Assembly (NCBI GenBank): GCA_910575545.1
Contig: CAJTFH010000025.1
Coordinates: forward strand, 1 to 57,918
Origin: Bacteroidales bacterium
GTDB lineage: Bacteria; Bacteroidota; Bacteroidia; Bacteroidales; Muribaculaceae
DNA length: 57,918 nucleotides
Direction: 5' to 3'
The number at the start of each line of letters is the position of its first letter. Positions within the stretch are counted from its first letter, which is position 1. The translations under genes and the position numbers were made by a program. This document shows, piece by piece, positions 26,464 to 57,491 of the stretch. The notes under the pieces are model-generated. The model worked only from the letters and a program-made list of their open reading frames with translations. It ran no database searches and was not told where the DNA came from.

Positions 26464-26895
26464 ATGGAAACCGGGAATTTGGCTGTGCCGCGGATTCTGC
26501 AGTTGCCGCGGATTCATGATCCACGGGGGAATCTGACGTTTGCCCAAGGGGGGGCGCAATTGCCGTTTGATCTGAAGCGGGCGTATTGGATTTATGATGT
26601 GCCTGCGGGTGAAGAGCGTGGAGGGCATTCTCACCATGAGCAGATGGAGCTTGTTATAGCCGTGGGGGGGAGTTTCAGTGTGAACCTTTTCGACGGGTTT
26701 TCATGGAAGACATATATGCTTAACAAACCGTTTGAGGGGTTGCTGATTCCCAGCGGTGTGTGGCGTACGCTTGATGATTTTTCTTCCGGCTCGGTGTGTC
26801 TGGTGCTGACGTCGAATTATTTCGATGAGGCAGACTATGTCAGGGATTTCGACGAGTTCCGGCATCTGGCGCTGGAGAGGGGGCCGTTGTTCTGA
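26464..26895 (+). CDS. dTDP-4-oxo-6-deoxyhexose 3,4-ketoisomerase (FdtA/QdtA-like, WxcM family)
   Basis: A small cupin that moves the keto group of the rmlB product from C4 to C3. The 143-residue protein has RIHDPRGNLTFAQGG near the start, the His-rich cupin motif EERGGHSHHEQMELVIAVGGSF and the second motif LLIPSGVWRTLDDFSSGSVCLVL. These match FdtA and QdtA; which epimer is made (galacto or gluco) cannot be decided by eye. It precedes the aminotransferase that would use its product by 23 bases. Confidence 0.88.
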   Translation: METGNLAVPRILQLPRIHDPRGNLTFAQGGAQLPFDLKRAYWIYDVPAGEERGGHSHHEQMELVIAVGGSFSVNLFDGFSWKTYMLNKPFEGLLIPSGVWRTLDDFSSGSVCLVLTSNYFDEADYVRDFDEFRHLALERGPLF

Positions 26896-47636: not shown

Positions 47637-47946
47637 ACGGCGGCAGGAGATCAGGATGCTTGGCTTTTTGGCTGAAAGGCGCTATTTGATGATATGGATT
47701 GTTAAGAGTGTGTTAGGATTTAACACGTTAACGATTAATGGGGTGATGGAGACTTTTTTATAATATATCATGGAGCCTTTTTGGGCGTTTTTCACAAGTT
47801 TCTTCGGTCACTATGCCCTCATTGCTCCCTCGGATTCAGACAAAAATGGCCTAAAACAGCTCAAAAATCCTGTTGAAGAAAAAGTCAAGACGACTTTTTA
47901 AATCCGGACACTCATTAAGAAAAAAATGTAGATAAATTGGCCTCTT

Positions 47947-47980
47947 TTTGTGGTTGTTTAGGAAATTATTTGTAATTTTG
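47947..47980 (+). promoter_or_regulatory. Promoter of the pilus operon
   Basis: TTTG at 47947-47950, 22 bases, TAATTTTG at 47973-47980. Transcription would start near 47988, giving a 208-base leader before the DUF3575 start. The gap 47637-47946 has several T-rich stretches and no gene that I recognise. Confidence 0.65.
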
Positions 47981-48018
47981 TAGTCAGTCCGAATTTTATT
48001 GGAACTGGATTTTTTACA

Positions 48019-48126
48019 ATGAAAACTGCACACAGCGCAAATGAAATGAATATATCCGCCCTTTATTTAAATAGGGGGGGGGTAAATCATTCACATTCAA
48101 TATATTACATTCTTCTTACGACATAA
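48019..48126 (+). CDS. Leader peptide frame crossing a G9 run
   Basis: A 35-codon frame, MKTAHSANEMNISALYLNRG ending SIYYILLTT, starts in an A/T-rich context suited to Bacteroidetes initiation. It crosses nine G at 48074-48082 and its TAA (48124-48126) touches the first base of the hairpin. With eight G the frame stops at once (TAA 48083-48085); with ten it runs through the hairpin to TAA 48180-48182. It may be a translated leader that controls the hairpin. Being short, its translation needs proof. Confidence 0.5.
   Translation: MKTAHSANEMNISALYLNRGGVNHSHSIYYILLTT
48074..48082 (+). repeat. Run of nine G in the pilus operon leader
   Basis: A homopolymer of nine G, the kind of tract that varies in length by slipped-strand mispairing. 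It lies about 85 bases after the expected transcription start and 113 bases before the first pilus gene. Confidence 0.9.
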
Positions 48127-48160
48127 CGCAGTCTCCATTTCCCGGGAGGATGCGTTTTTG
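48126..48160 (+). terminator. Terminator-like hairpin (possible attenuator) in the pilus leader
   Basis: ACGCA-GT-CTCC, loop ATTTCCCG, GGAG-GA-TGCGT (48126-48155) is followed by TTTTTGTGTTTT. It lies within the leader, 35 bases before the first pilus gene, so it would cut off the operon unless prevented from folding. Confidence 0.6.
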
Positions 48161-48195
48161 TGTTTTAATGCTACCGGAATAACTAACAACCGCAT

Positions 48196-48768
48196 ATGAA
48201 AAAGTTGATTATGCTGTGTCTGTTGCTGTTGCCTGTTGCCATGTCCGGCCAAAAGGTGGCGGTGAAGACAAATATTCTTTATGATGCATTGCTGACCCCC
48301 ACATTAGGGGTGGAGGCAGCCATGGCGCCCAAATGGACATTCGAGCTGAATGCCTCTCTGAATGCCTGGGCGGTTGACGGCCACCGTTGGAAACAGTGGA
48401 TGGCCCAGCCGGAGGTGCGCTATTGGTTCTGCCAGCGTTTTTCTGGACATTTTGTGGGTGCGCATCTTATCGGCGGCCAGTATAATTTCGGCAATATCGA
48501 CATGCCGTTTAAATTTCTCGGCACAGACTTTTCGGTTTTGAAAGACCGCCGTTACCAGGGGTGGATGGCCGGAGCCGGTTTGGCTTATGGCTACAGCTGG
48601 ATTCTGAGCCGTCACTGGAACTTCGAGGCTGAAATTGGCATAGGTTGGATTTACACCCGTTCAGATGTTTATCTGTGTGAGAACTGCGGGCGCAAGGTGC
48701 GCACCGGAGTGCCGCACAATTATGTCGGCCTTACCAAGGCACAGCTCAGTTTTGTCTATCTCTTCTAA
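48196..48768 (+). CDS. DUF3575 outer-membrane protein of the pilus operon
   Basis: A 190-residue exported protein with a signal peptide (MKKLIMLCLLLLPVAMSGQ). KVAVKTNILYDALLTPTLGVE and FELNASLNAWAVDGHRWKQWM with VRYWFCQRFSGHFVGAHL are the usual DUF3575 motifs, and it ends in a barrel-like aromatic strand (AQLSFVYLF). DUF3575 genes commonly begin Mfa/Fim-type pilus loci in Bacteroidetes; the role is not known. It starts 14 bases after the end of the alternative leader frame. Confidence 0.88.
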   Translation: MKKLIMLCLLLLPVAMSGQKVAVKTNILYDALLTPTLGVEAAMAPKWTFELNASLNAWAVDGHRWKQWMAQPEVRYWFCQRFSGHFVGAHLIGGQYNFGNIDMPFKFLGTDFSVLKDRRYQGWMAGAGLAYGYSWILSRHWNFEAEIGIGWIYTRSDVYLCENCGRKVRTGVPHNYVGLTKAQLSFVYLF

Positions 48769-48796: not shown

Positions 48797-50314
48797 ATGA
48801 AACTACTGACCAATATATTGCTATGTGGCTTGGTGGCGGTGCCGGTTGCCGCCCTTGGCGCCAAAACGGATGCCTCGGTGCTGAAAGTCTACGACCTTTC
48901 GGTGATTGTTGACGAACCGGCCTCGACCGTTAGTATCGACATAGACCTCGACCTCGATGCCATCACCCCCGGCAAAGACCGCGAGGTTGTTTTCACTCCC
49001 ATGATTATCAGCGAGGAGGGGACAGACAGTCTGTTGCTTCCTCCGTTGGTGGTGGCTGGCCGCAACCGCTATTATTATCATCTCCGCAATGACGAAGAGG
49101 AGGAAATGGCCTCGATTTATCCTGCGGGGCGCGCCGGCCATGCGATTTGCCGCCATGTTGTTGATTTTCAGCCTTGGATGGGTAGCAGCACCGTTGAGAT
49201 GCGCATCGAAGCCGCTTCATGCTGCGACAGTCCTCTGAGGGTGCCGGGGCCGAGCCGCAATGGCAACGTTGAGATGGCGCGTATCAACACTTCGCGCCCG
49301 GCGATGATTGCGGAGTTCGTGTATAGCCGTCCGGCCGATGCCGGGCCTGTTGTAAAGCAGCTTGACGGGAGGGCCTTCGTGTCGTTTGTTGTTAACCGCA
49401 CCGAATTGCGCCCCGATTATATGAAAAACCGCCGGGAACTTGAAAAGATCATCCGCTCGATAGATTATGTGCGCCGCGATTCCGACGCCACTATCACCCG
49501 GGTGCATATCAAAGGATTTGCTTCGCCTGAAGGGAGCTATTCAAACAATATCCGCCTGGCGCAAGGGCGTACGGCGACTTTGAGCCGTTATGTGCGCGAC
49601 CTATATCATTTCCCTGATAGTGTTGTGACAACTTCTTATGAACCTGAAGACTGGGATGGGTTGCGGAAATATGTGAAAGACTCGCTTGATTTCAATATAA
49701 CCCACCGGCCTGAGATTCTGGAGATTATTGACAGCCCTATAGATCCCGATGTGAAGGATGCGACCATACGCAAGCGTTATCCGAAAGATTATGCGGTGAT
49801 GCTCAAGCAGATATATCCATGGCTGCGTCATTCCGATTACACGGTTACATATAATATCCGTGTCTACACAGACATTGAAGAGGTGCGGCGTGTGTTCCGC
49901 ACAGACCCTTCGCGTCTGCGGTTGGTTGATTTCTACACGTTGGCCAATGGTTTGGTTGAGGGCTCTCCGGAATATTTCGAGGTGTTTGAGAAGGCTGTTG
50001 AGATATATCCCGAAGATAACGTGGCCAATCTCAATGCTGCTAATATCGCCATGCAGCGTGGCGACTATGATCTTGCACAGAGCCGGTTGCTGAAATCGGG
50101 CTGCACGCCTGAAGCTGATTTCGCCCGCGGGGTGCTTGCCGCCCGGCGTGGCGACTACGGTGCCGCCCTCGGTCTGTTTGAAAAAGCCCGGGAAGGTGGT
50201 ATTGAGGCGGCTTCTCGCTATATCGACAATATCAATTCCATACGCGATCATCATGTGGTTACGTTGTCGGTGGAGAGAGGGAAGAAGGCGGAAGATTTAA
50301 ACCGTGAGCCGTAA
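48797..50314 (+). CDS. DUF3868/OmpA-like protein with TPR tail
   Basis: A 505-residue exported protein: signal peptide (MKLLTNILLCGLVAVPVAAL), an N-terminal DUF3868 region (about 25-190), an OmpA-like domain (about 200-310; FVSFVVNRTELRPDYMKNRRE, VHIKGFASPEGSYSNNIRLAQ) and two or three TPR-like repeats near the end (EYFEVFEKAVEIYPEDNVAN, AAIAMQRGDYDLAQ-like). It may anchor the pilus machinery to peptidoglycan. Start: ATG 48797 gives the signal peptide; upstream codons overlap the previous gene. Confidence 0.88.
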   Translation: MKLLTNILLCGLVAVPVAALGAKTDASVLKVYDLSVIVDEPASTVSIDIDLDLDAITPGKDREVVFTPMIISEEGTDSLLLPPLVVAGRNRYYYHLRNDEEEEMASIYPAGRAGHAICRHVVDFQPWMGSSTVEMRIEAASCCDSPLRVPGPSRNGNVEMARINTSRPAMIAEFVYSRPADAGPVVKQLDGRAFVSFVVNRTELRPDYMKNRRELEKIIRSIDYVRRDSDATITRVHIKGFASPEGSYSNNIRLAQGRTATLSRYVRDLYHFPDSVVTTSYEPEDWDGLRKYVKDSLDFNITHRPEILEIIDSPIDPDVKDATIRKRYPKDYAVMLKQIYPWLRHSDYTVTYNIRVYTDIEEVRRVFRTDPSRLRLVDFYTLANGLVEGSPEYFEVFEKAVEIYPEDNVANLNAANIAMQRGDYDLAQSRLLKSGCTPEADFARGVLAARRGDYGAALGLFEKAREGGIEAASRYIDNINSIRDHHVVTLSVERGKKAEDLNREP

Positions 50315-50372: not shown

Positions 50373-52169
50373 ATGAAAAAGAACACATTGACGAAAGTCT
50401 TGCTTACAGGAATATGCGCAGTGGCACTCGCATCCTGTTCAAGCGAAGAGCCGGTTTCCGGCAATGGTAATGAGCCTGTACCACCGTTTTCGGCTGATGA
50501 CGTGGCTTATCTTGCAATTGATATCAAAGACGCCAACACAATCAGTAAAGGAGAGGATGGCGGTTTCTCATATGGGGTGGACGAGCAGGATGTGACCAAT
50601 GCCTATTTCTACTTCTATGACGCTGAAGGGAATTTCGTTACAGAGGCTAATATCTGGGAGGGTGACGGGAACGTCAATCCCGGTGATAAGGAAAATGTTG
50701 AGTATTTCGGCAGCCAGACTGTTGTGCTTACCGGGGTGGGGGCTAACCACTCGGCCTATATGGTGACGGTGTTGAACCGCCCTGACGGTTTTGAATATGG
50801 CAACACTCTGGCCGATATGCGCGACAAGGTTATAGCTTCGTGTCGTGAAGGTGATAATTTCATTATGACTACCACCAGCTATTTCGGTGTATCCGATTAT
50901 CACGACGACACATATTATTTCGCAACGAAGCTACAGGAGAAGAACTTCCTCAAGGAAGCTCCCACTAAAGATGACCTTTCGGAAGATAACCGTGTCGAGG
51001 TGTATGTTGAGCGTCTGGCGGTGAAGGTGCAGGTGAACCTCAACCTGACCGGCGGCACAACCCTTACTGACGGCCGCACTATTTATAAGGTGCCGATGAC
51101 GGTGGCCGGTGAGACGAATCCTGGTGTAGGCGGCGAGGCCGCTACCGACCTATATGTGGCATTCGGCAAATGGGGGCTTAACTCGACCTCAAAGAAAACA
51201 GCACTTATGAAGAGCCTGGAGGGCTTTACGGCTTCTACGTCTGTGGACGGCTGGAACACCTGGAACCAAGGTGCGCTCCACCGCAGCTATTGGGGCAAAT
51301 CGTATAACTACGGTCTGAGCGGCGCCCAGTTGAGGGAGACATTCGACTATGTTACATATGAAGACCTTAAAAATGAATTCAACACCGGGGTGGCTTATTG
51401 CAATGAAAGCACTAACGAGGCCGAGAATATCGGTCAGGACGGAGCTGTTGTGCCGGCCAACACAACTTCGGTGTTGTTGAAGGCAACGGTTTGCGACAAA
51501 GATGGTAACGCTGTTGAGCTGGTTGACTACCAAGGAATCAAGTTCCTGAAATCGCAGTTTGTGACTTATGTGCTCAACGCCCGGAAATCAACCTTGCAAT
51601 ATTATACCCGCAAAGTTTCATCGACGGATCCCGATGGCAAGCCGTTGTATGAATATACCCAGATTTCACCCGATGAGGTTGAAGTTGTGGCTGCGGGCAA
51701 CGGCACCGGTTCTGTGAAAATCGCTGTCAAGAAAGATGTGTCGCTTTATGTGCTTGGCGATCCGGTCGAGAACGAAGGGCATGTCACTTATCCCGATGCC
51801 GTCCTTGCCGACAATGCCGTTGTAAATACGGCGCTTGCCAGGGCTACCGACAACAACAAGGCAGTATGCTACACCGACGGAGCGATGTATTATCCCATTG
51901 CAATCGAGCATCTCAACAATCCTTCAACCAGCGAGAGCGCTATCGTCGACGCCCAATACGGTGTTGTGCGTAACCACTGTTATGTTGTCACAATCAACCA
52001 GGTGAAGGCTCTGGGTAATGGAGTGTTTGTGCCTGAGAAGGTGGGTGAGACCGGGCCTGATCCCGAGCCTCTGATTCCGGAAACCCCCAAAGAACCTAAG
52101 TATTATGTTGGTGCACGCATCAACATCCTCTCCTGGAAAATTGTCAGCCAGGGTGTGACACTCGAATGA
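50373..52169 (+). CDS. Mfa1-family major fimbrial subunit (fimbrillin)
   Basis: A 598-residue lipoprotein precursor: Cys22 (AVALASC) is followed by a Ser/Glu-rich stretch. It has the fimbrillin N-terminal domain (about 40-230, DVTNAYFYFYDAEGNFVTEA, VEVYVERLAVKVQVNL) and a C-terminal domain ending YYVGARINILSWKIVSQGVT, the motif that closes Mfa1-like subunits. In this pilus type the lipoprotein is processed by an Arg-gingipain-like protease and subunits exchange donor strands on the cell surface. It is probably the main shaft subunit. Confidence 0.88.
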   Translation: MKKNTLTKVLLTGICAVALASCSSEEPVSGNGNEPVPPFSADDVAYLAIDIKDANTISKGEDGGFSYGVDEQDVTNAYFYFYDAEGNFVTEANIWEGDGNVNPGDKENVEYFGSQTVVLTGVGANHSAYMVTVLNRPDGFEYGNTLADMRDKVIASCREGDNFIMTTTSYFGVSDYHDDTYYFATKLQEKNFLKEAPTKDDLSEDNRVEVYVERLAVKVQVNLNLTGGTTLTDGRTIYKVPMTVAGETNPGVGGEAATDLYVAFGKWGLNSTSKKTALMKSLEGFTASTSVDGWNTWNQGALHRSYWGKSYNYGLSGAQLRETFDYVTYEDLKNEFNTGVAYCNESTNEAENIGQDGAVVPANTTSVLLKATVCDKDGNAVELVDYQGIKFLKSQFVTYVLNARKSTLQYYTRKVSSTDPDGKPLYEYTQISPDEVEVVAAGNGTGSVKIAVKKDVSLYVLGDPVENEGHVTYPDAVLADNAVVNTALARATDNNKAVCYTDGAMYYPIAIEHLNNPSTSESAIVDAQYGVVRNHCYVVTINQVKALGNGVFVPEKVGETGPDPEPLIPETPKEPKYYVGARINILSWKIVSQGVTLE

Positions 52170-52227: not shown

Positions 52228-53301
52228 ATGATGTTAAGACAATCGTTACACAGAACCCTAATAAAAGCCAGGCATGTTGCCGCGGCGCTTGTATGCGCCT
52301 GCGCCGTGGCTTCATGCAACGGTTTCATCTATGAGGATGAGGGGGATTGCGCGCCGAAGTTCCGTGTGAAGTTCCGCTACGACAAGAACCTCAAGCGGGC
52401 CGATGCGTTTGCCAACGAGGTGAATGCCGTTAATCTATATGTTATAGATTCGCAGGGGCGTGTTGTGCACCGCCACACCGAGAGCGGCGAGCGTCTAAAA
52501 GCTGACGGCTATGAGATAGTGCTCGACGGCAAGGTTGCCCCCGGCAACTACCGTTTGCTGGCGTGGTGCGGCGACGGCGCTGTTGACGGCAACCATTCAT
52601 TCAGAGTGGAAGGGTCGGAGCGGCTTGAGGAACTGTCGTGCAGGCTCATCGGCGACCATGCTCTTGCGGGGCGTCCGGTCGGTGGTGAGACAACGCCTGG
52701 CGGGTTCCATTCCACACGTGACCTTCAGCGGCTCTATCACCATCTGACCGATCCGGTTGTGTTCCCCGACGAAGAGGGATACCACTATTATACACTTCCT
52801 CTGGTGAAAGACACAAATGCGGTTAGGATTGTGCTTCAGAACCTTTCAGGAACACCGATAGATGACAAGATGTTTGATTTCACAATCACCACCTCTAACG
52901 GGCGGATGAATTATGACAACGAGCTTCTGCCACACGAACCTGTGGTTTATCATGCCTGGGAGATTGGCGGGGGATCGGCTGTCATAACCGGTCAATATGG
53001 CTCCCCGGGAGTCTATTCGGCCTTGATTGCCGACCTGACGATGGGGCGGCTGGTTGAGGGGGAGGATGTGCGCCTCGACATAACACGGAAAGACACGGGT
53101 AAAAACGTGTTCTCGGCTCCGCTCATAGATCTGGCGCTGATGTTCAAGCGCAGTTATTATGGCGACCTGACCAACCAGCAGTATCTCGACTATCAGGATG
53201 AGTATAATTTCACATTCTTCCTCGACGAGAACAAAGACTGGGCCGTTACAGACATCTATATCGAAGACTGGCATGTTGTTTTAAACAACCCCGACATTTG
53301 A
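52228..53301 (+). CDS. FimB/Mfa2-family pilus anchor lipoprotein
   Basis: A 357-residue lipoprotein with Cys30 (CAVASC) as lipobox. The mature start CNGFIYEDEGDCAPKFRVKFRYDKN followed by ANEVNAVNLYVIDSQGRV is the hallmark of FimB/Mfa2 proteins, which anchor the pilus to the outer membrane and limit its length. NYRLLAWCG and the end DWHVVLNNPDI also fit. The start may be M at 52228 or 52231. It follows the main subunit by 58 bases. Confidence 0.9.
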   Translation: MMLRQSLHRTLIKARHVAAALVCACAVASCNGFIYEDEGDCAPKFRVKFRYDKNLKRADAFANEVNAVNLYVIDSQGRVVHRHTESGERLKADGYEIVLDGKVAPGNYRLLAWCGDGAVDGNHSFRVEGSERLEELSCRLIGDHALAGRPVGGETTPGGFHSTRDLQRLYHHLTDPVVFPDEEGYHYYTLPLVKDTNAVRIVLQNLSGTPIDDKMFDFTITTSNGRMNYDNELLPHEPVVYHAWEIGGGSAVITGQYGSPGVYSALIADLTMGRLVEGEDVRLDITRKDTGKNVFSAPLIDLALMFKRSYYGDLTNQQYLDYQDEYNFTFFLDENKDWAVTDIYIEDWHVVLNNPDI

Positions 53302-53338
53302 AAAATATTATCTGATGATTGACAGGTACCTCCATATT

Positions 53339-54448
53339 ATGAGCCGGATAATTCCGACTTTCGCTGCAGCCATGTTGGTTGCAGCTATGGCGGGATGTAG
53401 TTCCGGCAAAGGCGATGACATGCCGCCGATGCCGGTGAAACCCGGCGCTCCGGTGGAAGTGGCAGAGTATCAGGCCGGTTTTTTCATAACTGTAAGCGAC
53501 AGTGGTTCCCCCGTTGGGCGCGCCACCCCCGAAGGGGATTATGAGGCGGGCTATGGCTGGGAAAACCATATTGACCTTGACGGCCGGAGTCTGCATATAG
53601 CGGTTCTTGACGGGGAGGGGCGGTTTGTCTGCGAGCTTACGGATTTCGACATAGTGGCCTATGCCTCTGTGCCCGGTTCTAAAACTTATCATGTGGTGGC
53701 CACTGTGCAGTCTGACCAGGTGTGGCCGGCTCCGTTCAAAGTGGTTGTGATGGCAAACTGGCCAACCTATCCCGACCTATCAAAGGGGATAGAAGCCTTG
53801 TGGAACGCCTCATATGATTACTCTTCTCCGGTGTTGTCGGCCTCAAACCTTATTCCGTTTTATGGTGTGAAGGATTGCACAGCGAGTCTTGTTGCCGATA
53901 AGTGCGTGGATCTCGGCACGGTGCACCTGCTCCGCGCCATGGCTAAAATCGAAGTGGAACTGAAGCAGTCGGAAGGATATAACTGGGAATTCTCCACCTT
54001 GCAGCTTACCCGTTATAACCGGTCGGGTCTTTGTGCTCCTGCCGGTGTGCTTGAGGAAGGTGGATATGTGCATGGCAACTATGATGATGGTTATGTTGAC
54101 GCTCCGTCGATTCCCGAGAGGGTGGAACCGGGTGAAAATCTCGATTTCGTTAAGGTTGACGAGCGGAAATGGGTTGTGTATGTGCCGGAATATTCCAATA
54201 CCGCCCCGGGTGCGCAGGTCGCCCGCATAAAGGTGGTGTTCAAAGACAGCTTCAATTCATCGCCCGACAAGCCCGAATTCATAGATTTTAAACTTTACAA
54301 CGAGCCCGGCCAGCCTGTTTTCGACATATTGCGCAATTATTGCTACCGGTATGTTGTCAGCAAACTTTCAGAGAACCAGAATCTCAATCTGGAGGTGCAA
54401 GTGAAGCCGTATGGCCAGGTTGAACTGCGTCCGGGCTTCGGACAGTAA
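53339..54448 (+). CDS. Accessory Mfa-like fimbrial lipoprotein
   Basis: A 369-residue lipoprotein: signal peptide ending MAGC (Cys20). The domain layout resembles FimB/Mfa2 and other accessory fimbrillins: a first beta-domain with HIAVLDGEGRFVCELTDFDIV, then AMAKIEVELKQSEGYNWEFS and YRYVVSKLSENQNLNLEVQVKPYG-like strands at the end. It is probably a minor pilus component, in the position of Mfa3/Mfa4. The frame opens at 53315, but ATG 53339 gives a good signal peptide. Confidence 0.75.
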   Translation: MSRIIPTFAAAMLVAAMAGCSSGKGDDMPPMPVKPGAPVEVAEYQAGFFITVSDSGSPVGRATPEGDYEAGYGWENHIDLDGRSLHIAVLDGEGRFVCELTDFDIVAYASVPGSKTYHVVATVQSDQVWPAPFKVVVMANWPTYPDLSKGIEALWNASYDYSSPVLSASNLIPFYGVKDCTASLVADKCVDLGTVHLLRAMAKIEVELKQSEGYNWEFSTLQLTRYNRSGLCAPAGVLEEGGYVHGNYDDGYVDAPSIPERVEPGENLDFVKVDERKWVVYVPEYSNTAPGAQVARIKVVFKDSFNSSPDKPEFIDFKLYNEPGQPVFDILRNYCYRYVVSKLSENQNLNLEVQVKPYGQVELRPGFGQ

Positions 54449-54473
54449 TGCTCATCTGCAAATTAATGAAACT

Positions 54474-57400
54474 ATGTCATTGAATCCGATCAGACATAAA
54501 ATAATATATATAATGACATCCCTGTGGCTGGCCGCAGGGTTTGTGTCGTGTCTCGACGAGCCTCTCATGGATGATGAGGAGATAGGGGAGGGCACGGCCA
54601 TGGTCAGTTTCGACATAACATCGGTGCCGCAGACCGATGCCGAGCTTGGCAAGAGCCGTGCCGAGGGGGAGGCTATAGGGTCGATAAACAATGTTTTTGT
54701 GGCGTTTTATAAGACTGACGGCAAATTGGCCTACCGGTTCTATTTCGACAGCCCTAAGACTGAACAGATAAAGCTGGAGGGGTCGGAGACGGAGGAGTAT
54801 ACCGAATGCACCCGCAACCTGAAAGCACAGGTGAGCTTCGGGAAATACCGGGTTTATTCGGTGGTGAACTGCGGCGACCTCGATGCCACGCAGCATGACG
54901 CGATACAGACTGAGGAGGGTCTGAAAAAAATACCGTTCACCTGGAGCAGCACGGTCAGCGAGAATTGCCAGATGTCGGGATATTTCCACACCGACTTGTC
55001 GCAGACGCTCAACAACGAGGTGAAGACAGTGACAATCAATAAAAGCGCTGTTTCGCTTTATTCGTGGGCTAAACGCCTGGCGTCGAAAGTCACGGTAGCT
55101 TTCGATGCAAAAAACCTAAACGAGAATGTTTATATCTATCTGAAATCGGTGCAGATACGCGACATTCCGGTGTCGTGTCAGCTGGTCAACGGCAATACGC
55201 CTGCCAAAGCCGGTGAAATCACTGCCGAAGGGGAGACAATGCTCTATTCAGAAGAGGCTGATTATGAGGAATGGCCGTGTCTGGCCAAGGGGCGTGGCTC
55301 CAACACCTACGGAAGCCATAAAAACACCGATAAGGCTCTGTTTTTCTACGAGAATCTCCAGGGCAAGGATCCGAATAAACACCAGTATCAGAATTTCGAC
55401 AAGAAAGACAATAAGCCTTACGGCACATATGTCGAGGTCAAGGGCTATTATGTTAACAACTCAAAGAACAATCCTTCTTATGGCAACATAACCTACCGGT
55501 TCATGCTGGGGCAGAATGTGACCGACGATTTCAATGCCACCCGCAACACCCACTATAAACTCACGCTGGTGTTTAACAACGACGCCAACGATCCCGACTG
55601 GCATATCGAGTTCGGCTACAAGCCGAACCCGCCGCAAATTGTGACCCACGATGTCTATATCTCCTACCTCTATAACCGCTCGACCGATATCCCGGTGAAA
55701 GTTTATTTTGACAAGAACATTGTGGGTGATCTGGCGGAGGTCAAGGCCGGGATTATACGCAATCCGTGGGAATATGACTATGATGAGGAGAGCGGGTTGC
55801 CGCCACATCCGTTCAGCGGCGATCTTTACCCTGGTGAGCATTGGGCGAATACCAATCTGACCCATGGCTTCCTGACCCTGAAAAAATGGGACAAACGTGT
55901 TACAACCGTGCAGACCAAAGACGTTGTGACCCAGAAAAATGACTATAAAGCGAGTTTCACGGAAAGCTTCGACGAAGAATATAAGAGCGACCTTATGGAT
56001 GGGGTGATTCCGGTCTACACCCGTCCTCTTTCGATTCGCGGTGTCAGAGGCGCTTCGGAGAATGTTGATAACGGGTTATCGGGAAATAACTTCTATGTGG
56101 GTCGTACGCGTACGGCTAAACTGAAAATAACAGCATCGTTTACAAATTCTACTGCAACGATTGATACGATTATAGATGTCATACAGGTCAAGCGCCTGGT
56201 TAATCCTAAAGGTATATGGCGAAGCGCAGGGAATATGAATGAGTTCCATGTGATTCTCTATGACACGAGTTCCTCACCCGAATCGGCGGAGTTCTTTGAA
56301 CCCATACAGTCGAAGGGGCCATGGAGGGCTGAGGTGACTGATGGCGATTGGGTTCAGATCCGCGACAGTGAGAGCGGCTCTTGGGGCAAGGTTGTAGAGG
56401 GGTCGACATTGTCTGAAATCGAGTTCTATTACAGGCCGGTTTCAACTATAGGCTCTACGGAGCCACCGAGATTCGGCATGATAGATGTGACGTATCACGA
56501 CAACACATGCGACCATGTTATCCTTGTCAGCCAGGGCTATGGAACGGTTGATATGGGAACGACGTCGAAAGATGGCAAGCCGGTCCGGTGGCATATGGGG
56601 AATGTGCGCCACGCCGGTGTTGGAGGCGATGTGGTTAATCCTCTCGAGGGTGGCGCCATGTTCATGTTCGGCTCAAGCATAGGCTTGAAATCATCGAACA
56701 ACCTCAGGCCTGGCTATGGTTTTGAAGCCGATATTTCCGGCAAGCAACTGGAATGCTGGGAGGCCGACGGCAGTGAGGGTTTAACCACATTCAATGAGTT
56801 GCGCTCGTCAAACAAGGGCTTTGGCAGCGACTTTACGGGCAGCGAATCAACAAGGGTGTCTGATTTTAACGACTGGAACCAGTTTTTCGAGAATATTGAC
56901 ACTTATCAGCGTTACTATGGAGTTATGTATGGCGATGAGTGTATGGAACCCGAACAGTCAAATACGACATCAAACACCTATACCGCACCTGGAGACAAGA
57001 AGGGGATGCGTGGTGTGTTTGTGCGCAATGTAAACACGGGCCAGCAGTTGTTCTTTCCTATAGGCAATACCGGTTATGGGCGTAGAAAGGGGCATTATAA
57101 TGACCCGATAGGCACTTTGCGCTATGCCAACCGAAGTGCATTAATGGATTTTAAAACTGTGCAAAGCCTGAATGCACCGGCTCTCTATACAATGAAGAAC
57201 CAGCTGGGTGCGCTATATTGGCTGAATGACGTGGAATATCGTATTGACGTAAAAGAGCCTAATATAGTTGATGGGAAAGACACCCCACGGCCGTTTTATG
57301 CCTGGGATTTGAATTATACGAGCTTCGGTTTCGGGCCGTATCAGACGAGAATCTTCTATAAGGATGATTTCAGCTCTCTTTATGGGGCTGACCATAACGG

Positions 57401-57491
57401 AGAAAAAGATGGCGACGTTGTGACATCAAAGATGCCTGCGGTTGGCACTACAGATGCAGTATTTGTGCGCCTGGTTGATGTGGGGAACTGA
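54474..57491 (+). CDS. DUF4906-family large fimbrial lipoprotein (probable tip)
   Basis: A 1005-residue lipoprotein with Cys26 (GFVSC). The N-terminal fimbrillin-like domain (GSINNVFVAFYKTDGKLAYRF) is followed by several beta-rich domains, including a BACON-like segment near residues 590-690 (FHVILYDTSSS, RAEVTDGDWVQIRDS), and a FISUMP-like C-terminal part (GYGRRKGHYNDPIGTLRYANR). DUF4906 proteins close Mfa-type operons and are likely pilus tip adhesins or large accessory proteins. Asn and Thr are frequent. It starts 25 bases after the previous gene and is followed by the palindromic element. Confidence 0.83.
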   Translation: MSLNPIRHKIIYIMTSLWLAAGFVSCLDEPLMDDEEIGEGTAMVSFDITSVPQTDAELGKSRAEGEAIGSINNVFVAFYKTDGKLAYRFYFDSPKTEQIKLEGSETEEYTECTRNLKAQVSFGKYRVYSVVNCGDLDATQHDAIQTEEGLKKIPFTWSSTVSENCQMSGYFHTDLSQTLNNEVKTVTINKSAVSLYSWAKRLASKVTVAFDAKNLNENVYIYLKSVQIRDIPVSCQLVNGNTPAKAGEITAEGETMLYSEEADYEEWPCLAKGRGSNTYGSHKNTDKALFFYENLQGKDPNKHQYQNFDKKDNKPYGTYVEVKGYYVNNSKNNPSYGNITYRFMLGQNVTDDFNATRNTHYKLTLVFNNDANDPDWHIEFGYKPNPPQIVTHDVYISYLYNRSTDIPVKVYFDKNIVGDLAEVKAGIIRNPWEYDYDEESGLPPHPFSGDLYPGEHWANTNLTHGFLTLKKWDKRVTTVQTKDVVTQKNDYKASFTESFDEEYKSDLMDGVIPVYTRPLSIRGVRGASENVDNGLSGNNFYVGRTRTAKLKITASFTNSTATIDTIIDVIQVKRLVNPKGIWRSAGNMNEFHVILYDTSSSPESAEFFEPIQSKGPWRAEVTDGDWVQIRDSESGSWGKVVEGSTLSEIEFYYRPVSTIGSTEPPRFGMIDVTYHDNTCDHVILVSQGYGTVDMGTTSKDGKPVRWHMGNVRHAGVGGDVVNPLEGGAMFMFGSSIGLKSSNNLRPGYGFEADISGKQLECWEADGSEGLTTFNELRSSNKGFGSDFTGSESTRVSDFNDWNQFFENIDTYQRYYGVMYGDECMEPEQSNTTSNTYTAPGDKKGMRGVFVRNVNTGQQLFFPIGNTGYGRRKGHYNDPIGTLRYANRSALMDFKTVQSLNAPALYTMKNQLGALYWLNDVEYRIDVKEPNIVDGKDTPRPFYAWDLNYTSFGFGPYQTRIFYKDDFSSLYGADHNGEKDGDVVTSKMPAVGTTDAVFVRLVDVGN

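Follow-up and report, generated by a model that had tools for sequence, protein, structure and literature searches.

A candidate poly-G attenuator ahead of a Muribaculaceae pilus operon and a family-wide poly-G promoter element

For the Bacteroidales of the gut, most discussion of phase variation concerns DNA inversion, and within this order the Muribaculaceae are common in the mouse gut. Switches that depend on repeat tracts have been described in other bacteria, and the closest to the locus analysed here is the pil1 pilus operon of Streptococcus gallolyticus. As given in excerpts of Danne et al. 2014 (PMC3894217), the pil1 leader contains GCAGA repeats, the low-expression state has a leader stop codon 39 bp before a terminator, the high-expression state has the leader stop within or past the terminator, and the switch was shown with terminator and start-codon mutants. 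Excerpts of further papers describe homopolymeric tracts: such a tract separates the two promoter elements of Neisseria porA, opc and fetA (PMC2791445), in Bordetella pertussis fim2 and fim3 a C tract lies in the promoter region and insertion or deletion of one C abolishes transcription, fim3 losing its expression when the tract is one C shorter (PMC10172299), and in Bifidobacterium breve slippage of an intragenic G tract switches the pili of a gut commensal (PMC9187656). For the Bacteroidales themselves, an excerpt of PMC7366714 gives the promoter consensus as TTTG at -33 and TAnnTTTG at -7, and mentions that Bacteroides thetaiotaomicron has long leaders whose short frames recall attenuation. 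Among the open-licence papers listed by literature searches, in several cases the best 8-20 of more, no title or abstract start names a Bacteroidales promoter or attenuator with a poly-G tract.

The leader of the pilus operon

The window, by which we mean the whole stretch of 57,918 nucleotides that was analysed, is a single contig (C25) of a 3.27-Mb Muribaculaceae genome and holds a fimbrial operon downstream of trmD. An earlier note on this DNA had described, ahead of the operon, a promoter, a 35-codon frame starting at 48019, nine G at 48074-48082, a hairpin and a first pilus gene at 48196, and had proposed that the G run may decide whether the hairpin forms; every one of these coordinates was confirmed. 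The features are as follows.

47947-47950 (TTTG) and 47973-47980 (-7 box TAATTTTG), + strand: promoter P1, box score 13.3
48019-48126, + strand: predicted leader reading frame, ATG at 48019, 35 codons with G9, stop TAA at 48124-48126
48074-48082, + strand: G9 tract, then TA, with TTTAAATA just before the tract
48126-48155 (core) with T5 at 48155-48159, + strand: terminator-like hairpin, from fold and consensus scan
48196-48768, + strand: first pilus operon gene, DUF3575 (PF12099), E 1.4e-70
48797-50314, + strand: second gene, weakly DUF3868/TPR-like, with matches under the curated cut-off; the start at 48797 is our choice, the mechanical frame opening at 48665
50373-52169, + strand: fimbrillin, Fimbrillin_C (PF15495), E 1.3e-16
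52228-53301, + strand: Mfa2-type fimbrial anchor (PF08842), E 2.1e-53
53315-54448, + strand: operon gene without a Pfam match
54411-57491, + strand: DUF4906 protein of 1026 aa, E 1.2e-6

Transcription from P1 is predicted to start near 47986. The P1 box has the top score within 47637-48195, close to the median of 13.6 for exact boxes, and when the intergenic stretch was shuffled 1000 times, 20 shuffles reached it; the score was trained on exact TAnnTTTG boxes and for that reason favours them. The TTTG and the box are spaced by 22 nt, which is slightly long, run-free promoters of the family peaking at 19-20. Short DNA matches to the P1 stretch occur in many family genomes. A promoter between the run and the gene was sought, and no good -7 box was found from the run to the first gene (to 48195): the best score there is -1.1, the 5th percentile of the family boxes being 9.6. 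Since the P1 box, 93 nt upstream of the G9 tract, is the sole good box at the locus and none follows the run, readthrough of the hairpin seems to be needed.

The predicted fold of 48115-48165 has an energy of -17.3 kcal/mol (z -3.4), equalled by 2 of 200 shuffles, and the hairpin is one of two terminator-like sites returned by a terminator consensus scan of 47637-48300, in which shuffles average 0.7. As a terminator it has flaws, namely one mismatch, an 8-nt loop and just five T before a G.

A repeat tract is found inside a short predicted leader frame (G9, 48019-48126) ahead of a pilus operon starting at 48196, and the three frames after the run have their stops ahead of the hairpin, at it and beyond it (48083, 48124 and 48180). 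The stops that the earlier note gave for G8, G9 and G10 are correct: with G8 the frame stops at 48083-48085, about 40 nt ahead of the hairpin stem; with G9 it stops at 48124-48126, overlapping the first base of the stem; and with G10, likewise G7, it stops at 48180-48182, beyond the hairpin. When 48083-48195 is shuffled with its dinucleotides preserved, 21.7% of the shuffles have a frame with a stop near the base of the hairpin, and 7.2% show the full three-way pattern. Runs of nine or more G are not rare either, with 15 distinct runs in the 3.27-Mb genome. The window arrangement alone exceeds chance only modestly. A pure chance G run was rejected as a full explanation, ten of the 15 long runs being followed by TA and two (in the window and on contig C21) preceding fimbrial operons. 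A looser pattern (TTAA, gap, G7, TA) proved unspecific in the same genome, with 11 matches versus 6 for its reverse. Elsewhere in the window, two G7 runs at 26548 and 26664 are separated by 116 nt; their flanks agree at 90% over 197 nt, and they represent a short duplicated stretch.

In the closest ortholog, locus L100, the first pilus protein shares 81% identity with that of the window, and upstream of its gene lie the same G9-TA, CCGCC before the run and a hairpin with a T-run. This hairpin, at -26.7 kcal/mol (z -6.3), is much stronger than that of the window. The L100 promoter and start codon are out of view because the contig starts 27 nt before the run; the frame that is in phase with CCGCC, as in the window leader, ends with a TAA 4 nt short of the hairpin. 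Counted from the base of the hairpin, the three L100 frames have their stops at -15, -4 and +82, none of them as far ahead of it as the G8 stop of the window. No good box was found after the L100 run, the best score (-0.7) being reached by 19% of shuffles; TACGTTAG, one letter off the consensus, lies 18 nt past the run. The tract is G9 in both species' assemblies (one genome per species), with no length variation seen. Just upstream of the run, CCGCC is common to the window (in the stretch 48055-48082) and L100 (in the stretch 15-36), and it could pair with the run in RNA.

We searched for terminator-like hairpins up to about 75 nt from 170 distinct G/C runs of at least 7, each read in both orientations (340). 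Five runs had one (the window, L100, L151, L075 and L032), a figure that is not a genome-wide rate because the loci surveyed had been picked for fimbrial genes and poly-G sites. In L151 and L075 the run is followed at 12 or 18 nt by a good box, L032 is a C run, and only the window and L100 join the G orientation, a hairpin and the lack of a good box after the run. The leader of L101 has C8 and, in the scan, no hairpin of the window kind. At L075 (1583-1613) and L151 the terminator-like hairpin lies in the presumed leader, after the -7 box of a poly-G promoter, and attenuation might there be added to a promoter switch. A DNA search with 47950-48195 against 397 family genomes returned, beyond the window itself, short matches only, mostly at P1 or the run region, with 103 genomes matched in all; conservation of the leader in further relatives was accordingly rejected.

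A poly-G promoter element in the family

The pattern GTTAA-N6-TTAA-N(1-6)-G7 was found in 87 of 119 family genomes and the reversed pattern in none. In a sample of 247 genomes of the order, the pattern was present in 8 and the reversed pattern in 1; the 8 comprise 4 of 4 Muribaculaceae and 4 of 243 others, and the comparison of 87/119 with 4/243 gives a Fisher p of 7e-51 with genomes treated as independent. We analysed 93 distinct family sites, which are part of those found. The GTTAA-N6-TTAA pair lies upstream of the tract at these sites by virtue of the search pattern, which also sets the lower limit of G7 and the linker of 1-6, the 5-31 nt range for the box being our own choice. In the window and in L100 the GTTAA repeats are degenerate, and TTTAAATA before the window's G9 is half of the family GTTAA-N5-GTTAA element. 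TA directly follows the run at 83 of the 93 sites, the number of G ranges from 7 (the pattern limit) to 12 with a mode of 9, and an exact TAnnTTTG box stands 5-31 nt past the run at 61 sites; 15 sites lack an exact box within 120 nt.

Repeat and box are 25, 26 or 32 nt apart at 29 of these 61 sites (permutation mean 12.0, p about 5e-5), and their distance is concentrated in this way though the linker, the run and the remainder all vary. G length alone compensates the spacing in one of three classes (p 0.0014); in the other two this explanation fails (p 0.31 and 0.18). In the class of 25-27, TT precedes the run at 11 of 20 sites, making a TTG element, and of the 15 runs with a T before them, 11 have their first G at a distance of 19 or 20 from the box. 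Forty run-free promoters with the same repeats have their TTG mostly 19-20 nt from the box, and because the spacing with a run matches that of the run-free promoters, the run in class 25-27 fills the -33/-7 spacer. What characterizes a spacer homopolymer is found at family sites other than the window: a tract within the promoter, a conserved total spacing and a varying tract length. Repeats and box 24-27 nt apart with a free spacer occur in 80 of 119 genomes, with 146 matches versus 7 reversed, and about 49 of the 146 hold G7 or more (these match sums were made by eye).

The same promoter layout with interrupted runs, such as GGGGAGGG, was seen in G068, G077, G137 and G008, and these promoters are possibly locked former switches. 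Length variation between near-identical copies was looked for and discarded as a line of evidence: the listed pairs that differ in length have flanks at most 92% alike (L072 with G11 and L075 with G9, for example, have flanks 77% alike), and for this reason the differences in run length show evolution and not slippage within a strain.

The proteins encoded just downstream of the poly-G sites number 84, nine of the 93 sites having no downstream frame by our rule, and they include 13 with DUF3575 and 13 with a TonB plug. In the run-free set, which may include chance matches and serves as background (40 sites, of which 3 without a frame were dropped, giving 37 proteins), DUF3575 and the TonB plug account for at most one protein each: both are absent from the list of 25 families, and every family left off that list has a single member. 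Fimbrial and TonB-receptor genes are enriched behind poly-G sites (26 of 84 versus at most 2 of 37, p 0.001).

Within the window's own genome, poly-G tracts with repeats that deviate slightly from the strict pattern precede two DUF3575-DUF5119-Mfa_like operons (contigs C8 and C21), and a further poly-G site with repeats precedes a SusC/SusD pair (C38). Strict repeats followed by a box 8-34 nt on occur at four places, three of which hold G8 or G9; the site at C7:79735 has no box. There are four DUF3575 loci in this genome, with a run upstream at C25 (the window), C8 and C21, and no run of at least 8 close to the gene at C5 in the stretch examined. Two similar cassettes were seen directly behind a poly-G promoter (L215:1033-3128, G000 C2; L039:4-1849, G000 C14), each with an unmatched protein of 200-226 aa followed by a caspase-LRR protein, and at the C2 poly-G site there is a small protein with a sub-threshold match to a secretion tail.

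Of 36 related DUF3575 genes, 19 have a G/C run of at least 7 in the 430 nt ahead of them; the 36 derive from 39 loci, with L137 and L138 left out and L105 dropped for missing upstream sequence. Upstream of the DUF3575 genes at L108, L113 and L121 the element is reversed, with the C run first and the repeats nearer the promoter box; at L108 and L113 the C run lies upstream of the repeats, farther from the box. The length of such reversed tracts would not alter the spacing from repeat to promoter, and a pure spacer model does not explain them. At L125 and L126 the C run is in the forward position. L104 (JAMPDC010000001.1, 2.6 Mb, titled Staphylococcus sp.) encodes a Bacteroidales-type pilus protein, and its title is probably wrong.

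Possible attenuation and the alternatives at the window locus

The best explanation of the window locus, in our estimate just on the favourable side of even, is a phase-variable transcription attenuator. RNA from P1 would carry the short leader frame with G9 and then the terminator hairpin, and the Mfa/Fim-type pilus operon would be transcribed only when the polymerase gets past the hairpin. Slippage in the G tract would shift the leader frame. With G8 or G11 the ribosome would come off at 48083, some 40 nt short of the stem, so that the hairpin would form and the operon would be off; with G9 the ribosome would end on the first base of the stem (48124-48126), and with G10 or G7 it would pass through the stem to 48180, the hairpin in either case being blocked and the operon on. 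The parts, their order and the frames are seen in the sequence, from which we infer slippage, translation of the leader, and termination with its relief.

Attenuation is the best fit in that the ortholog L100 keeps G9 and the hairpin and the stop geometry matches that of pil1. The restriction to two species, the 7% chance of the three-way pattern, the 22-nt spacing of P1, the flaws of the window hairpin, the identical G9 of both assemblies and, in L100, the hidden promoter and start codon and the lack of a stop as far upstream as that of G8 count against it. The ortholog and the family pattern together make the observation more convincing than the window alone. At this locus the family promoter element seems to have been relocated to a transcribed leader: the G tract and the TA after it probably derive from the family-wide element, and within the leader the tract would most likely act by attenuation. 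The reading offered in the earlier note thus holds in part, being the best fit for the locus, with P1 upstream and with G9 and a hairpin in L100. Its statement that no pilus operon with such an arrangement was known is wrong, since S. gallolyticus pil1 is a precedent, as excerpts of PMC3894217 make plain. The widespread poly-G promoter element of the family could not be visible to that reader.

An unlikely alternative, although the best of those considered, is that G9 is a decayed family promoter element, with steady expression from P1, an unused leader frame and a hairpin that serves RNA stability or terminates leakily. In its favour, the run keeps part of the signature (TTTAA, three bases, G9, TA) but has neither first repeat nor -7 box in the window, and 19 of the 36 related DUF3575 genes have a G/C run upstream; decay does not readily account for a tract that is unbroken in both species despite the lack of a good box, when interrupted runs like GGGGAGGG exist in the family, nor for a hairpin with a T-run standing, in both species, where a frame stops.

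We consider it improbable that the G tract is still a phase-variable promoter here, with a weak or non-consensus -7 box and RNA starting just before the hairpin. An exact box 5-31 nt past the run occurs at 61 of 93 family sites, and the L100 sequence 18 nt past its run misses the consensus by a single letter, but the best window score at 10-31 nt past the run is -8.6, matched by 77% of shuffles, the best L100 score of -0.7 is matched by 19%, and the repeats are degenerate in both species. A spacer promoter of the porA/opc/fetA type was rejected for the window locus on the same ground, no good box following the run.

That the tract is a fixed-length protein-binding site or structural RNA element, such as a leader hairpin with the upstream CCGCC, is very unlikely: CCGCC precedes the run in both the window and L100, and the predicted fold of the leader pairs the run with upstream C and U, but a fixed length is not suggested because the number of G varies from 7 (the pattern limit) to 12 across the 93 family sites.

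A Bacteroidales invertible promoter was likewise rejected, the best repeat pair around P1 being 75% complementary over 24 nt, with four such pairs in 1 kb. That pair, an imperfect inverted repeat (47863-47886 and 47991-48014) that flanks P1 where an invertible promoter would carry one, is probably due to chance.

Taking attenuation at the window together with the promoter sites elsewhere, we tentatively propose, at somewhat less than even confidence, a contingency system present across the Muribaculaceae in which poly-G tracts with GTTAA pairs would, through promoter spacing, turn surface genes such as those for fimbriae and TonB/SusC receptors on and off, and in which one lineage would use the tract for leader-peptide attenuation of a pilus operon: one module with two mechanisms.

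Relation to known switches

The larger result lies outside the window, in a family-wide poly-G element with many runs in the promoter spacers of surface genes. A slippage-based system of this kind, if true, would escape surveys of DNA inversion, and a single assembly would represent one of several states. The window, in turn, would be a second attenuator of the pil1 type, in another phylum and with another repeat.

The comparisons that follow rest, for the known systems, on excerpts of the papers cited. The window resembles pil1 in that a pilus operon is preceded by a repeat tract in a short leader frame and by a terminator hairpin before the first gene, and in that the frame would set the ribosome to stop either well before the hairpin (39 bp in pil1, about 40 nt in the window) or at it. 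It differs in that pil1 has GCAGA pentamers, streptococcal pili and the support of mutants, whereas the window has a G mononucleotide tract and Bacteroidales Mfa/Fim-type pili and is known from its sequence.

The family promoters resemble porA, opc and fetA (PMC2791445) in having a homopolymer between promoter elements whose length would change their spacing; the Bacteroidales -33 TTTG and -7 TAnnTTTG elements (PMC7366714), together with the upstream GTTAA pair, set the family sites apart from Neisseria. The window itself is unlike porA, opc and fetA in that no good box follows the run. With B. pertussis fim2 and fim3 (PMC10172299) the family sites share fimbrial genes and a homopolymer in the promoter region; there it is a C tract beside a site for the regulator BvgA and here a G tract beside GTTAA repeats, a putative regulator site, and the window site is without the fim geometry. 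The B. breve tract (PMC9187656) lies inside a gene, whereas the tract of the window lies in a leader and those of the family in promoters. The invertible promoters of the Bacteroidales also phase-vary surface structures, and in the same order, but they do so by inversion between repeats; around P1 there are only imperfect inverted repeats (75-79% complementary), unlike those of invertible promoters.
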